The notes below the pieces were generated by a model, which saw only the letters and a list, made by a program, of their open reading frames with translations, searched no databases and was not told where the DNA came from. A DNA stretch of 64,000 nucleotides, from the NCBI GenBank assembly GCA_030446775.1, contig JAUJMQ010000001.1:1-64000 (forward strand). The letters run 5' to 3'. Every line of letters starts with the position of its first letter. The stretch's first letter is position 1. The DNA comes from Egibacteraceae bacterium (lineage in GTDB: Bacteria > Actinomycetota > Nitriliruptoria > Euzebyales > Egibacteraceae). The position numbers were made by a program, and so were the translations under genes. Below are positions 54,285 through 59,672 of the stretch, piece by piece.

Positions 54285-55997
54285 GTGTGGCTCCGACTCC
54301 TCGCGCTCCTGCTCGCCGGCCTTCTCACCGGCACCGGCGCCGCGCTGGTGCTCGACCGGCCGGCCGGCAGCTCGTCCGCGGCCGAGCCGTCGTCGTCGGT
54401 GGCCTCGCCGTCGGGCGTCGAGCCCGGACCTTCTCCCTCCGCGACCAGCCGTTCCACGGCGCCGTCAGCGAGCGCCCTCGCGGTCGCACCCACCGGCCAG
54501 GCGCCGGCCGCGACGGCGTCTGCGGTGACCGGCTCCCCGGTGGCGCCGTCGCCGTCGGTCTCGTCTACCGCCACGCCTGCTCCCGCGGCCACGTCTCCCG
54601 CGGCGCCTTCTCCGACACCGGGCACGTCGCCGTCGGCGGTCGCCGCCCTCGACCAGCAGGCCCTCGCCGGCGAGGCGACGGCCAGGGCGCGGCTGCGGAT
54701 CCGGCTCGCGCGCGTCGTCAGGCGCCACGGCCGGCGCGACGACGCCGCCGTCGCGGTCCTCGACGACCGCGGTCAGCCGCTGTACCAGCGCGAGAGCGCC
54801 CGCCAGGTCGTGCCCGCGTCGACCCAGAAGCTGCTCGTCGCCGGCGCCGCACTGGCCGTCCTCGGCGAGGACCACCGCTACGTCACCACCGTCCGCGCCA
54901 CCGCTCGACCCCGTGACGGCGTGCTGCGCGGCGACCTCGTCCTGGTGGGCGGCGGCGACCCCGTGCTCGCGAGCCCCGAGTTCGCCAGGGCGGAGCCCGA
55001 CCGGCCCCGCACCCCCGTCGCCCGGCTGGCGGCGCGGGTCCGCGCGGCGGGCATCCGCCGGGTGACCGGCCGCGTCATCGGCGACCCGCGGGTGCTGGGC
55101 GCCCAGCCGCTGGCCCAAGGCTGGCTGCCGCGGTACGTGGACAACCTCGACGCCACCAGGGTGTCGGGTCTCACCGTGGACGGGGGACGACGGCTGTTCC
55201 GGCGCGCAGGCGTGCTCCGCGGCGAGGCGGCCCGGAGCCCGGCTCGCCGCGCCGCCGCCGTCCTGACCGTGCAGCTGCGCGACCACGGGGTGCGTGTCGC
55301 GGGCGGCCCGCGTGCCTCCCGGCGACCCCCCGCCACGCCCGCCGAGGTGGCGCGGGTGCGCAGTCCCCGCCTCGCCGTGCTGCTGGCGACGATGGTGCGC
55401 GACAGCGACAACGGCATCGCCGACACCGTGCACCGCTCGCTCGGCGCGGCCGCGGGCGACCCCACGTGGTCGGGATCGGCCGTCGCCGTCGAGCGGGCCC
55501 TGGCTCCGCTCGCGCTGGACTGGACCGGCGTCGTCATGGCCGACGGCTCGGGGCTGTCGCGCAGCAACCGCGTCACCGCCGGCTTCCTCGTGCGGCTGCA
55601 GGAGCGGATGTGGTCGTCCAACCTCGGCCCCCGCTGGCGCTCGCTGCTGGCCGTGTCGGGACGCCGCGGCACGCTGCGAGGGCGGCTCGTGGGCACCGTC
55701 GCGGAGGGGCGCCTGTACGGCAAGACCGGATCCCTGCGTGACGTGCGCAGCTTCGTCGGCACCGTCACGGGCCCGCGCGGGGACGTCACCCTGGCCGTCG
55801 TCGGCAACGGGCTCACGTCGGCGGGTATGGAGCGCGTGCGCGAGCTGACCGACCGCTTGGCCGTCGTGGCCGCCGAGGAGGTCCTGGGCTGCCGGCGGGT
55901 CCGCCGCTCCGCCGTCGCCCCCGAGCGGCGTCGCCACGGCGAGGACTCTCCGGTGCGCCGCCGTGTCCGCGTCCGTCTGGTGTGCGACGCCGCGTGA
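54285..55997 (+). CDS. D-alanyl-D-alanine carboxypeptidase (PBP4/DacB family)
   Basis: 570 residues. N-terminal helix LRLLALLLAGLLTGTGAALV, then a long Ser/Pro/Ala linker (to ~120) and the S13 domain: SxxK PASTQKLL, SxN MVRDSDNGIADT, KTG LYGKTGSLRDV. Trims peptidoglycan stem peptides. Its stop overlaps the HD gene by GTGA, so they form one operon. Confidence 0.9.
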   Translation: MWLRLLALLLAGLLTGTGAALVLDRPAGSSSAAEPSSSVASPSGVEPGPSPSATSRSTAPSASALAVAPTGQAPAATASAVTGSPVAPSPSVSSTATPAPAATSPAAPSPTPGTSPSAVAALDQQALAGEATARARLRIRLARVVRRHGRRDDAAVAVLDDRGQPLYQRESARQVVPASTQKLLVAGAALAVLGEDHRYVTTVRATARPRDGVLRGDLVLVGGGDPVLASPEFARAEPDRPRTPVARLAARVRAAGIRRVTGRVIGDPRVLGAQPLAQGWLPRYVDNLDATRVSGLTVDGGRRLFRRAGVLRGEAARSPARRAAAVLTVQLRDHGVRVAGGPRASRRPPATPAEVARVRSPRLAVLLATMVRDSDNGIADTVHRSLGAAAGDPTWSGSAVAVERALAPLALDWTGVVMADGSGLSRSNRVTAGFLVRLQERMWSSNLGPRWRSLLAVSGRRGTLRGRLVGTVAEGRLYGKTGSLRDVRSFVGTVTGPRGDVTLAVVGNGLTSAGMERVRELTDRLAVVAAEEVLGCRRVRRSAVAPERRRHGEDSPVRRRVRVRLVCDAA

Positions 55998-56878
55998 CCG
56001 TCGACGCGCCGGCGCTGGTCGCCGACCTGCTCGACGACCCACCCGCCGCGCTGACCCGCCACGGCGACGGCATCCCGGAGCTCGCCGCGATGCGGGGCTG
56101 CCCCCAGCCGCCCAACCACCATGCCGAAGGCGACGTGTGGACCCACACCCGCCTGGCGCTGGAAGCGGCGGCGGACCTGCCCGCCGCGGTCGACCGCCAC
56201 GCCGGTGCCGCCCTTGTCGCCGCTGGGCTCGCGCCGCTGGCTTTGCCGCGGCGCACGTTGACCGCCACGGTCGCCGTCCTGCTGCACGACGCGGCCAAAC
56301 CCGTCACCATCGCGGGCGGGGCGCAGGGCTGGACCTACTACGGCCACGACGCGGTGGGCGCCGAGCTCGCACGCGGCCTGCTGGGGCGCCTGCAGCTGTC
56401 CCGAGCCGCCGCGGCGGCGGGCGCGAAGCTCGACGTCGACGCCGTGTGCTGGCTGGTCCGCGAGCACCTGTTCTGGCTGAACACCGACGTCGGCCGCGTC
56501 ACCGACCGGGCCGTGGCGCGCCGCTTCGTGCGTGACGACGGCCGCGACGAGGACCTCCGGCTGCTGTCGTGGTGCGACACCTTGGGCTCCCTGGGGCCTG
56601 ACGGCCGCCCGGCGGTCGGACTGCTCGTCGACGCGGAGGCCCGTCTGGCCGCCAGCCGTGCCCGCGCCGCCGAGGCCGCCGCGCGCCCGGCCCCGCTGCT
56701 GGACGGCGAGGCGGTCATGGCGGCACTCGGCCTGGAGCCCGGGCCGCGGGTCGGAGCCGTGCTCGCCCACCTGAGACAGGTATGCACCGGGGAGGACAGC
56801 GCCCGTCGGCGGCTGCGCGACGACGCGGCGTGGCTGCGGGCCGCACCGCTGTCGGAGCTGCGTGCGCGCAACGCCTAG
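55994..56878 (+). CDS. HD-domain protein related to CCA-adding enzyme C-terminus
   Basis: 294 residues. The fragment QPPNHHAEGDVWTHTRLALE and VAVLLHDAAKP with GHDAVGAELA is the HD phosphohydrolase part found in bacterial tRNA nucleotidyltransferases; no nucleotidyltransferase domain is present. Could be a nucleotide or phosphate hydrolase; exact substrate unknown. Translationally coupled to the carboxypeptidase. Confidence 0.75.
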   Translation: MTVDAPALVADLLDDPPAALTRHGDGIPELAAMRGCPQPPNHHAEGDVWTHTRLALEAAADLPAAVDRHAGAALVAAGLAPLALPRRTLTATVAVLLHDAAKPVTIAGGAQGWTYYGHDAVGAELARGLLGRLQLSRAAAAAGAKLDVDAVCWLVREHLFWLNTDVGRVTDRAVARRFVRDDGRDEDLRLLSWCDTLGSLGPDGRPAVGLLVDAEARLAASRARAAEAAARPAPLLDGEAVMAALGLEPGPRVGAVLAHLRQVCTGEDSARRRLRDDAAWLRAAPLSELRARNA

Positions 56879-56930: not shown

Positions 56931-56942
56931 CACCACGTGGTG
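56931..56942. promoter_or_regulatory. Perfect palindrome upstream of the B12-binding regulator
   Basis: CACCACGTGGTG, 26 nt before GTG 56968. A 12-bp perfect dyad in the short leader is a candidate operator for autoregulation. Confidence 0.4.
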
Positions 56943-56967
56943 CCGACCGAGTCAGGAGTGCCACCCG

Positions 56968-57825
56968 GTGCCCGACACCCCGCCGCCCGATGGGTTGCTG
57001 CTCACGCTCCAGGAGGCCGCCGACCGCCTCAAGGTCCACTACATGACGGCCTACCGGTGGGTGCGCAAGGGCCAGGAGCTGCCGGCGTTCAAGGCGGGCG
57101 GACGCCTGCGGGTGCGCGCGTCCGAGCTCGAGCGCTTCCTGCTCGACCGCCAGGCGGACGTCGCGCTGCCGGCGGGGTCTCCGCGCCGCACCCGCTGGGC
57201 GGCCCACGTCGACCGGCTCCACCGGCTGCTGCTGGACGGGCGGGCTGTCGACGCCGCCGGGCTGCTGCGGAAGGTCGTCTCGGACGGCGCGCCGGCGGGT
57301 GACGTGTACCTGTCGCTGCTGGCGCCGGCGCTGCACCGCGTCGGGGAGGATTGGGCAGCGGGACGGATCGGCGTCGCCGCGGAGCACCGCGCCACCGAGA
57401 TCACGGCCGTCGCCATGGCCCGACTCGGGGACCACTTCCGGCGCCGCGGCCCCTCCCGCGGCGTTGCCGTGACGCTGACCCCGCCCGGCGAGCAGCACGG
57501 CCTCGGGTCGGCCATGGCGGCCGACTTCATGCGGGCGGCGGGCTACGACGTCCATCACCTGGGCGTGAACGTGCCGACCGGGGAGCTGCGGCAGTTCCTG
57601 TCGGTGGTCGCGTGCGACGTCATCTGCTCGTCGGTGACCACGCCGGGACTGGACCCCGGCTACTACCGGGAGCTCGTCTCGGTCTCGCGCGACGGCGGCC
57701 CGCCCGCGGTCGTCGTGATCGGTGGCCAGGGCGCCGACCCGGAGGCGGCCCGGGACGCGGGTGCGCTGCACGTCGCCGACCTGCGTGACCTGTCCCTGCG
57801 TCTGGATGCGATGGCGCGCTCCTAG
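56968..57825 (+). CDS. Cobalamin-binding (CarH-like) regulator with excisionase-type HTH
   Basis: 285 residues from GTG 56968, GGAG 8 nt upstream. N-terminal winged HTH of the excisionase/HTH_17 kind (LTLQEAADRLKVHYMTAYRW...RASELERFLL). Residues ~75-160 form the helical cap with the CarH-type Wx9EH motif in DWAAGRIGVAAEHRATE. The C-terminal Rossmann domain holds the cobalamin motif DxHxxG (YDVHHLGVNVP) and GGQGADPE. In CarH this arrangement makes an adenosylcobalamin-dependent light sensor and repressor. Here the DNA-binding part differs from the usual MerR, so photoreception is inferred from the cap and B12 motifs, not shown. Confidence 0.85.
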   Translation: MPDTPPPDGLLLTLQEAADRLKVHYMTAYRWVRKGQELPAFKAGGRLRVRASELERFLLDRQADVALPAGSPRRTRWAAHVDRLHRLLLDGRAVDAAGLLRKVVSDGAPAGDVYLSLLAPALHRVGEDWAAGRIGVAAEHRATEITAVAMARLGDHFRRRGPSRGVAVTLTPPGEQHGLGSAMAADFMRAAGYDVHHLGVNVPTGELRQFLSVVACDVICSSVTTPGLDPGYYRELVSVSRDGGPPAVVVIGGQGADPEAARDAGALHVADLRDLSLRLDAMARS

Positions 57826-57839
57826 CGGGCGGTGCCCCC

Positions 57840-58559
57840 ATGGACAACCGCACCGAGCAGCTCGCCGACGGCGTCTGGCGTGTCGAGGTGGGCACGATGG
57901 TCAACGCCTACGTCCTCGCCGTCGACGGTCGCGGCGACGGCGACGGCCTCGCGATCGTGGACACCGGCACCGCCGGCGGTGGACCGCGGCTCGTGCGCAG
58001 CATCCGGCTGCTGGGCTTTGAACCGCGCGCGGTCCGCGAGGTGCTGCTCACCCACTGGCATCGCGACCACAGCGGCAGCGCGGCGCGCTTCGCACGTTCG
58101 AGCGCCGCACCGCGGGTGCGGGCGGGCGTCCGTGACCTGCCCGTCGTCCAGGGCCGGCAGCGCCGCCCGCAGCGCGAGGCGGCAGCGGGCGACGCGACGG
58201 TCCTGGGCCGGCTCGTGGGGCGGATCTCGGTTCCCGGGGCGCCGGTACCCGAGGCGAGCGCGCTCCACGGCGGGGCGCGGCTCGACATCGCGGGGGGAGT
58301 CCTCGTCGTTCCCGCGCCGGGCCACACCCCCGGATCGCTGGCGTTCCACCTGCGGGATCGTGGCGTGCTGCTGGCGGGCGACGCGGTGCTGACCGTGCCG
58401 CGCCTGTGGCGTGGGCCGCGCGCCTTGTGCTCCGCGCTGTCAGAGCAAACAACCAGCCTGCGCCGGCTCGCCGGGCTGGAGTTCGACGTGCTGGCTCCGG
58501 GCCACGGCCCGCCGCTCGCGCGTCGCGCCCGCGACCGTCTCGCCGCCCTCGCCGGTTGA
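57840..58559 (+). CDS. Metallo-beta-lactamase-fold hydrolase
   Basis: 239 residues, ATG 57840 only 14 nt after the regulator. Zinc ligands: LLTHWHRDHSG (HxHxDH, second His Trp-flanked), APGHTPGSLAF, GVLLAGDAVL, and final LAPGHGPPLA. Hydrolase of thioester or lactone type; substrate unknown. Position suggests it may be a target or partner of the B12-binding regulator. Confidence 0.85.
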   Translation: MDNRTEQLADGVWRVEVGTMVNAYVLAVDGRGDGDGLAIVDTGTAGGGPRLVRSIRLLGFEPRAVREVLLTHWHRDHSGSAARFARSSAAPRVRAGVRDLPVVQGRQRRPQREAAAGDATVLGRLVGRISVPGAPVPEASALHGGARLDIAGGVLVVPAPGHTPGSLAFHLRDRGVLLAGDAVLTVPRLWRGPRALCSALSEQTTSLRRLAGLEFDVLAPGHGPPLARRARDRLAALAG

Positions 58560-58703: not shown

Positions 58704-59672
58704 ATGGAACGGATCGCGGTACTGACCAGCGGCGGTGACGCCCCCGGCATGAACGCCGCGGTGCGCGCGGTCGTCCGCGCCGCCGACGCCGCGGGGATCG
58801 TGTCATACGGCGTGCGCAACGGCTACGCCGGCCTCATCGAGGGCCGCCTGGAGCCGATGGACGCGCGCGCGGTCTCCGGGATCCTGCACCTGGGCGGCAC
58901 GACGCTGGGCACCGCCCGGTCGCCGCGGTTCCGCACCACCGAGGGCCGGGCCGAGGCCCTCAAGCACCTCGACCTCGCCGGCGTCGACGGGCTGGTGGTG
59001 CTCGGCGGCGACGGCTCGTTCCGCGGCGCGGACGCGCTGTCGCGGGAGGGGTCGGTGACGGTCGTCGGCATCCCCGGCACGATCGACAACGACCTGTCGG
59101 GCACGGACTTCACGCTTGGGTTCGACACCGCCGTCAACACCGCCCTGGAACTGATCGACCGGATCCGCGACACCGCCGCGAGCCACGGGCGGCTGTTCTT
59201 CGTCGAGGTGATGGGCCGGCGCAGCGGCTGGTTGGCGCTGTACTCCGCGCTCGCCGGCGGCGGCACCGAGGCGCTCGTGCCCGAGCGGCCCACCGACATC
59301 GACGTCCTGCGGGTACGGGTGCAGCGGTCCTTCGCGCTCGGCAAGCGCTTCTGCCTGGTGATCGTCGCCGAGGGCGACGACGCCGGCGGCGCGTACGAGG
59401 TCGCCGCCCGCGTCTGCGAGGGCACCGCGGTGGACTACCGGGTCACCACGCTCGGCCACGTGCAGCGGGGCGGGTCGCCGACGATGCGCGACCGCGTCCT
59501 GGGCGCGGTGCTCGGGGATGCGGCGGTCACCGCCCTGCGCGACGGCGCCGACGGGGTCATGGTCGGCCAGCTGCGCGGCGACGTGGTGCGCACCCCGCTG
59601 GAGACAGCGTGGTCGCGGTTCGACCGGACGCCCGAGGACCTGCTCAGTCTCATGGACCGCCTGTCACGCTGA
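58704..59672 (+). CDS. pfkA: ATP-dependent 6-phosphofructokinase
   Basis: 322 residues. VLTSGGDAPGMNAAVRAVV, the nucleotide loop VVLGGDGSFRGADAL (Gly-Asp-Gly-Ser marks ATP rather than PPi specificity) and the catalytic PGTIDNDLSGTDFTLGFDTA; MGRRSGWLAL and HVQRGGSPT for fructose-6-phosphate. Committing step of glycolysis. Confidence 0.95.
   Translation: MERIAVLTSGGDAPGMNAAVRAVVRAADAAGIVSYGVRNGYAGLIEGRLEPMDARAVSGILHLGGTTLGTARSPRFRTTEGRAEALKHLDLAGVDGLVVLGGDGSFRGADALSREGSVTVVGIPGTIDNDLSGTDFTLGFDTAVNTALELIDRIRDTAASHGRLFFVEVMGRRSGWLALYSALAGGGTEALVPERPTDIDVLRVRVQRSFALGKRFCLVIVAEGDDAGGAYEVAARVCEGTAVDYRVTTLGHVQRGGSPTMRDRVLGAVLGDAAVTALRDGADGVMVGQLRGDVVRTPLETAWSRFDRTPEDLLSLMDRLSR

Follow-up and report, generated by a model that had tools for sequence, protein, structure and literature searches.

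Genes and features of the locus

The window that we analysed is a 64,000-nt stretch of DNA from an Egibacteraceae bacterium (assembly GCA_030446775.1, contig JAUJMQ010000001.1, positions 1 to 64,000), and our subject is a regulator gene within it whose product joins a helix-turn-helix (HTH) domain of the excisionase type to a cobalamin-binding domain (CBD) resembling that of the B12 photoreceptor CarH. By CBD we mean the B12-binding_2 cap together with the B12-binding Rossmann part. The original prediction had placed the gene at 56931-57825; the open reading frame is real, but position 56931 belongs to a palindrome in the leader and the coding sequence starts at 56968, preceded by an AGGAG at about 56954 that resembles a ribosome-binding site. 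The features of the gene are the following.

56968..57825, + strand: regulator gene with HTH_17, B12-binding_2 and B12-binding domains; GTG start, TAG stop, 285 aa; start region and synteny conserved in relatives
56998..57147, + strand: HTH_17/excisionase-type winged helix, residues 11-60; recognition stretch VHYMTAYRWVR
57211..57426, + strand: four-helix cap domain B12-binding_2 (PF02607, 46.5 bits, residues 82-153), with GEDW-x9-EH at 57343-57387
57466..57762, + strand: Rossmann cobalamin-binding domain (PF02310, 41.9 bits, residues 167-265), with the lower-ligand His177 in GEQHGLG at 57487-57507
57544..57564, + strand: YDVHHLG, not the ligand site
56931..56942, no strand: perfect 12-bp palindrome CACCACGTGGTG; present, not conserved and at chance level

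Cobalamin-binding domain and light signature

We aligned the window protein to the solved CarH (TtCarH) and found that W129, E139, H140 and H177 fall on W131, E141, H142 and H177, respectively. The cap motif W-x9-EH of the original prediction was therefore right (G126EDW129...E139H140), and GxxW-x9-EH is present in 21/21 orthologs from Nitriliruptoria, the class of the window. The proposed cobalamin motif YDVHHLG, instead, was mistaken: it aligns with GVPALYLG of TtCarH and lacks the spaced SxT/GG elements, hence we rejected it as a chance resemblance. Precisely, the full motif D/ExHx2G-x41-SxT/V-x22-27-GG (PMC9304148) occurs once in the window protein, as ExHx2G-x41-SxT-x27-GG, with His177 as the ligand; this residue, within PPGEQHGLG, is invariant in 35 aligned sequences.

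All four elements of the experimentally validated signature of light-responsive CBDs, i.e. GxxW, EH, GxxH and GxxxP (PMC11796333), are present, as G126/W129, E139H140, G174/H177 and G199/P203. An AlphaFold2 model of the window protein (predicted local distance difference test 89.6) gave TtCarH, full-length and CBD, as its best PDB matches, with a template modelling (TM) score of about 0.83 by target length for the CBD and Foldseek E-values down to 2e-15, and the photocobilin CBD 8j2w lies within a root-mean-square deviation (RMSD) of 1.9 A of it. The fold rule of SignatureFinder is 2 A RMSD from TtCarH (PMC11796333); we judged the fold to be close to the TtCarH CBD by Foldseek E-value and TM score. 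By profile the nearest CBDs are those of the photocobilin SasPcob and of CtMerR, and the NCBIfam CarH equivalog matched the CBD part only, at 90.9 bits against a cut-off of 400.

The window protein thus has in common with CarH and class I LitR (TtCarH, BmCarH, MxCarH) the CBD fold, the W-x9-EH cap, the His177 lower ligand and the complete B12 motif. It differs in its DNA-binding domain, described below, and in having Ala130 at the position of TtCarH His132, the residue that forms the bis-His light state and is present in many, not all, CarH proteins (PMC9304148). His occupies this position in 0/21 Nitriliruptoria orthologs and in 9/56 members from a second actinobacterial class, which we suspect to be Acidimicrobiia. 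CtMerR and photocobilins respond to light without His132 (PMC11796333). With Ala at this position, the light state of the window protein would be water/hydroxide- or Glu-ligated, as in those proteins, rather than bis-His. Like them (PMC11796333, PMC10979010), it has a residue other than His here; unlike photocobilins, it consists of HTH_17 and CBD only, in 285 aa, with neither a bilin-binding (biliverdin) nor a GGDEF domain.

One could suppose that the CBD is vestigial and that the regulator works independently of B12, as does CarA of Myxococcus, a protein in which the B12 motif persists although B12 is not required (PMC9304148). In fact, the cap Trp and EH are gone from two HTH_17-CBD proteins of the wider family (L143, L145), which retain the ligand His and recall CarA. 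Across the 21 Nitriliruptoria orthologs, however, every ligand and cap residue is invariant, a sign that selection for cofactor binding continues, and we consider a vestigial domain very improbable.

DNA-binding domain

The DNA-binding part had been predicted to be of the excisionase/HTH_17 type rather than MerR, and the profiles bear this out: over residues 11-60 the window protein scored 53.7 bits with Pfam PF12728 (cut-off 27) and 41.4 bits with the NCBIfam excisionase model TIGR01764 (cut-off 28.8). We found no MerR-type N-terminal HTH in it and no similarity of its HTH to CarH chains. V23, H24, Y25, T27, Y29, V32 and R33 of the winged helix are invariant among the 35 aligned sequences. 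A single-residue insertion, a Q between the recognition helix and the wing in KGQE(LPA) (residues 34-37, 57067-57078), is present in the window protein and in none of the other 34.

The closest solved chain is BldC (6amk), a weak match with E = 0.018. BldC of Streptomyces is a protein of 68 aa with no sensor domain that binds direct repeats head-to-tail, with a 9-bp site per protomer (PMC5859096), an arrangement that the Nitriliruptoria repeats described below also suggest. Given the weak similarity and the presence of a CBD, we do not count the window protein as a BldC family member. Taken together, domains, alignment to solved CarH, light signature and predicted fold support well the earlier proposal of a CarH-like cobalamin sensor joined to a non-MerR HTH, and the alignment places the Trp, Glu and His of the cap and the ligand His on the CarH cobalamin site, provided that H177 is read as the ligand.

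Relatives and tree

The genome of the window is 2.4 Mb and 60% complete, and its named close relatives are metagenome-assembled genomes of Nitriliruptoria. Orthologs were found in 21 genomes of the same order, with 49-67% identity and invariant W, EH and H, and the full-length HTH_17-CBD architecture in 74/296 genomes of the second class. In the CBD tree, which includes a long-branched MetH row of uncertain place, a weakly supported split (75/90) sets the HTH_17 group off from MerR-type CarH and photocobilin-like proteins; the Nitriliruptoria proteins form a single clade (100/99), and its sister group (97/81) consists of five second-class proteins, most of them of the W type (W denotes the recognition-helix residue considered below).

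Among the sampled genomes of the window's family, none yielded a MerR-type CarH. A Nitriliruptoria genome of a sister family (G027) carries both an HTH_17-CBD regulator and a MerR-type CarH-like gene (L261, G027:C95:6896-7714). Other genomes of the class have photocobilin-like CBD proteins with an extra non-Pfam domain, which group apart (L039-L047).

Candidate operators

For both classes we counted sites in the 400 nt upstream of the regulator gene, with dinucleotide shuffles as control. The inverted repeat TTAGYRNTAA or its mirror was present in 23/56 second-class loci (shuffles: mean 0.08, maximum 2), and the direct repeat TTAKC-N5-TTAG, with a 10-bp period, in 8/21 Nitriliruptoria loci (shuffles: 0), in all 8 of which it was the only copy of the locus and was oriented as the regulator. 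The two forms have the TTAG half-site in common. CarH operators, by comparison, are tandem 11-bp TnnACA direct repeats; tandem direct repeats are also the arrangement of the operator candidate in the Nitriliruptoria relatives, with TTAG half-sites, and the window leader has neither the direct nor the inverted TTAG form.

The exact 12-mer TTTAGYRCTAAA gave 13 sites in 10/15 regulator-bearing second-class genomes against 0 for its reversed control, whereas 25 genomes without a detected regulator gave 9 against 10; enriched in the former only, the motif follows the regulator. The geometry also goes with the recognition helix: RYVR occurs with the inverted form (23 loci) and RWVR with the direct form (9 loci), with no exception among the site-bearing loci, a correspondence that is confounded by relatedness. 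We infer that the TTAG sites are operators of the family. They could instead belong to a different regulator, for example an unlinked one that responds to light, under whose control the HTH_17-CBD gene would stand. What ties site to protein is position and co-occurrence, and many HTH_17-CBD members, such as the mutasome-linked clade described below, have no site; against this, the sites track the presence of the regulator gene across genomes and their geometry tracks the Tyr (inverted, 23:0) or Trp (direct, 0:9) of the recognition helix, with the phylogenetic confounding just mentioned. We consider a separate regulator unlikely.

The clearest direct-repeat operator candidate lies about 85 nt upstream of the regulator in locus L144, as three tandem TTA[G/T]C repeats (TTATCAATCATTAGCATTATTTAGC) that have 14 bases in common with the leader of the Nitriliruptoria locus L055. 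In the f31 family (L131, L133, L183, L185, L187, L196, L199) the inverted repeat is separated from the regulator by a conserved small basic ORF of about 65-75 aa. Two further candidates were rejected: a strict direct repeat elsewhere in the genome of the window (C32:6832), one match where about 0.4 would be expected from the shuffle rate of the window, and TTAGCAAACGTTAG in G014 (L076), which is at the end of a gene for a major facilitator superfamily-like protein and is likely due to chance.

The operator had been sought by the original prediction in the palindrome CACCACGTGGTG. This perfect 12-bp palindrome does exist, 25 nt ahead of the start codon and as the sole copy in the window. Perfect 12-bp palindromes are, however, common here, with 76 in the window against 56 expected from composition and 0.12 expected in the 143-nt leader; CACCACGTGGTG itself was found in 0/20 other Nitriliruptoria orthologous loci and not in the carotenoid cluster of its own genome, and it is unrelated to the TTAG sites. 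Because of its frequent class and its absence from the relatives we rejected it as an operator, a role that is hardly credible, and attribute it to chance. The accompanying idea of an operator geometry different from that of CarH is supported for the family, with TTAG half-sites, inverted or direct according to class, in the place of CACCACGTGGTG.

Probable second-class regulon

Inverted sites were also found at other genes of second-class genomes. They precede crtE of crtE-crtI-crtB operons (L135, L189), ECF-sigma (extracytoplasmic function sigma factor)/RskA (anti-sigma) operons (L173, L175, L177, L208), with a photolyase downstream in the operons of L175 and L177, and fasciclin lipoprotein genes (L220, L223, L225, L231); in L179, L181, L186, L188, L197 and L205 an ECF sigma gene is divergent from the regulator and the site stands between the two, and in L221, L176 and L210 sites lie beside WhiB genes. 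Carotenoid, ECF-sigma, photolyase and fasciclin genes are thus the probable regulon of the second-class regulators. The linkage to crt and photolyase genes recalls CarH and class I LitR. A literature search for a link between LitR and fasciclin found no relevant paper.

In Streptomyces coelicolor the light regulator LitR, which is of the MerR type, is encoded beside the ECF sigma gene litS. The same neighbourhood of regulator and ECF sigma is found in nine second-class loci (L173, L175, L177, L179, L181, L186, L188, L197, L205); the window locus differs in having no ECF sigma neighbour and an HTH that is not MerR-type.

In a separate clade without sites, the regulator of about 12 loci is followed on its own strand by imuA-imuB, often together with dnaE2 (L130, L132, L134, L138, L139, L172, L174, L178, L184, L203, L207 and, in part, L192). 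This linkage makes a light-controlled mutasome, i.e. mutagenic translesion repair, possible.

Neighbouring genes

The genes around the regulator in the window are the following; the DacB-like gene, like the RNA methyltransferase-like gene mentioned below, was named by eye.

54285..55997, + strand: DacB-like (D-Ala-D-Ala carboxypeptidase-like) gene, conserved upstream neighbour
55997..56878, + strand: HD-domain protein gene (PF01966), between the DacB-like gene and the regulator
57840..58559, + strand: metallo-beta-lactamase (MBL)-fold metallo-hydrolase gene (PF00753, 91.8 bits), 14 nt downstream of the regulator
58704..59672, + strand: phosphofructokinase gene (PF00365, 343 bits), conserved downstream neighbour

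The order conserved in Nitriliruptoria is RNA methyltransferase-like, DacB-like, regulator, (MBL), phosphofructokinase. The DacB-like homolog lies upstream in 18/19 Nitriliruptoria loci with sequence there, and the HD-domain gene intervenes only in the window locus and in G010. The MBL-fold hydrolase reported at 14 nt was confirmed, and is probably co-transcribed with the regulator: of the 13 loci of the window's family whose sequence extends that far, 11 have it adjacent and co-directional, and the two sister families lack it. This adjacency makes the proposed control of the regulator and hydrolase by the regulator itself plausible; the other half of that proposal, an operator before them, found no counterpart, no operator-like site being present before the window copy. 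In one f2 genome a truncated hemoglobin-like gene, named by eye, takes the place of the MBL gene and overlaps the regulator stop (L057, 8979-9422 in oriented coordinates).

Such a housekeeping neighbourhood, with no photolyase, crt or ECF-sigma genes at the Nitriliruptoria loci, would suit a sensor of B12 level, which would bind adenosyl- or methylcobalamin and report cofactor supply, its light response being incidental. The absence of His132 from all 21 orthologs would suit it as well, as would an apparent MetH in the genome of the window (a second B12-binding_2 match), which indicates that cobalamin is used. We consider such a sensor unlikely all the same: the cap Trp and EH, marks of light-responsive CBDs, are invariant, the common half-site links the same protein with light-stress genes in the second class, and the light-responsive CtMerR and photocobilins lack His132 too.

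Interpretation

On these grounds we consider that the window protein is probably a transcription regulator that depends on B12 and responds to light, most likely by repressing in the dark, with CarH-like sensing and BldC/Xis-like DNA binding. By alignment with solved CarH, the CBD would hold adenosylcobalamin base-off via His177, with Trp129, Glu139 and His140 capping the adenosyl group; light would break the Co-C bond and change the oligomer, so that the BldC/Xis-like winged helices would leave the DNA. CarH itself forms, with adenosylcobalamin, an oligomer in the dark which comes apart in light. Site enrichment suggests that the family binds TTAG half-sites, as inverted TTAGYRCTAA in the second class, where the targets would be the regulator gene, LitS-like ECF-sigma/anti-sigma operons (some with photolyase), crtE-crtI-crtB operons and fasciclin lipoprotein genes, and as direct TTAKC-N5-TTAG in Nitriliruptoria, before the regulator gene itself. 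In the window the likely output would be the operon that the regulator would form with the MBL hydrolase gene.

Several observations weigh against a light-responsive repressor at this locus. The window leader has no TTAG site of either form, its best score with the direct-repeat weight matrix being -1.3, i.e. background, against 25.6-33.6 for true sites, and the window protein alone among those aligned carries the insertion before the wing; the window copy may have changed in specificity, or the insertion may be an assembly error. Both operator forms are also missing from the Nitriliruptoria crtEIB clusters, including that of the window genome (contig C41, L147, 9742-17355: crtE-crtI-crtB-fni-crtYcd-like), and the evidence for a light regulon comes from the second class and not from the window's own. 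Finally, in light the H132A variant of TtCarH remains for the most part a tetramer (PMC10442372), hence the response of the window protein, in which His132 is missing, might be weak.

For the family as a whole we offer a more tentative history, which we hold to be possible though short of probable. The B12 photoreceptor repressors would make up a so far undescribed actinobacterial family whose BldC/Xis-type winged helix reads TTAG, and would ancestrally have used inverted sites over carotenoid, ECF-sigma, photolyase and fasciclin genes; the lineage of the window and its sister clade would have switched to direct repeats as Tyr gave way to Trp in the recognition helix, the regulon shrinking to their own operon, and another clade would have come to lie ahead of imuA-imuB-dnaE2.

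The LitR/CarH classes I-V named in the papers that we consulted are all MerR-type, and our literature search brought up no paper in which a B12 photoreceptor is combined with an excisionase/HTH_17 domain; one study describes fusions of CBDs with 'HTH' domains as a general kind, and this HTH_17 cluster may be among them (PMC11796333). If our interpretation is true, B12 light sensing and DNA binding have come together on at least two occasions, and operator geometry can change while the half-site stays. In uncultured actinobacteria, genes for pigment and photolyase, and perhaps those for mutagenic repair, would then be under the control of green light, and new green-light switches could be built from the parts.
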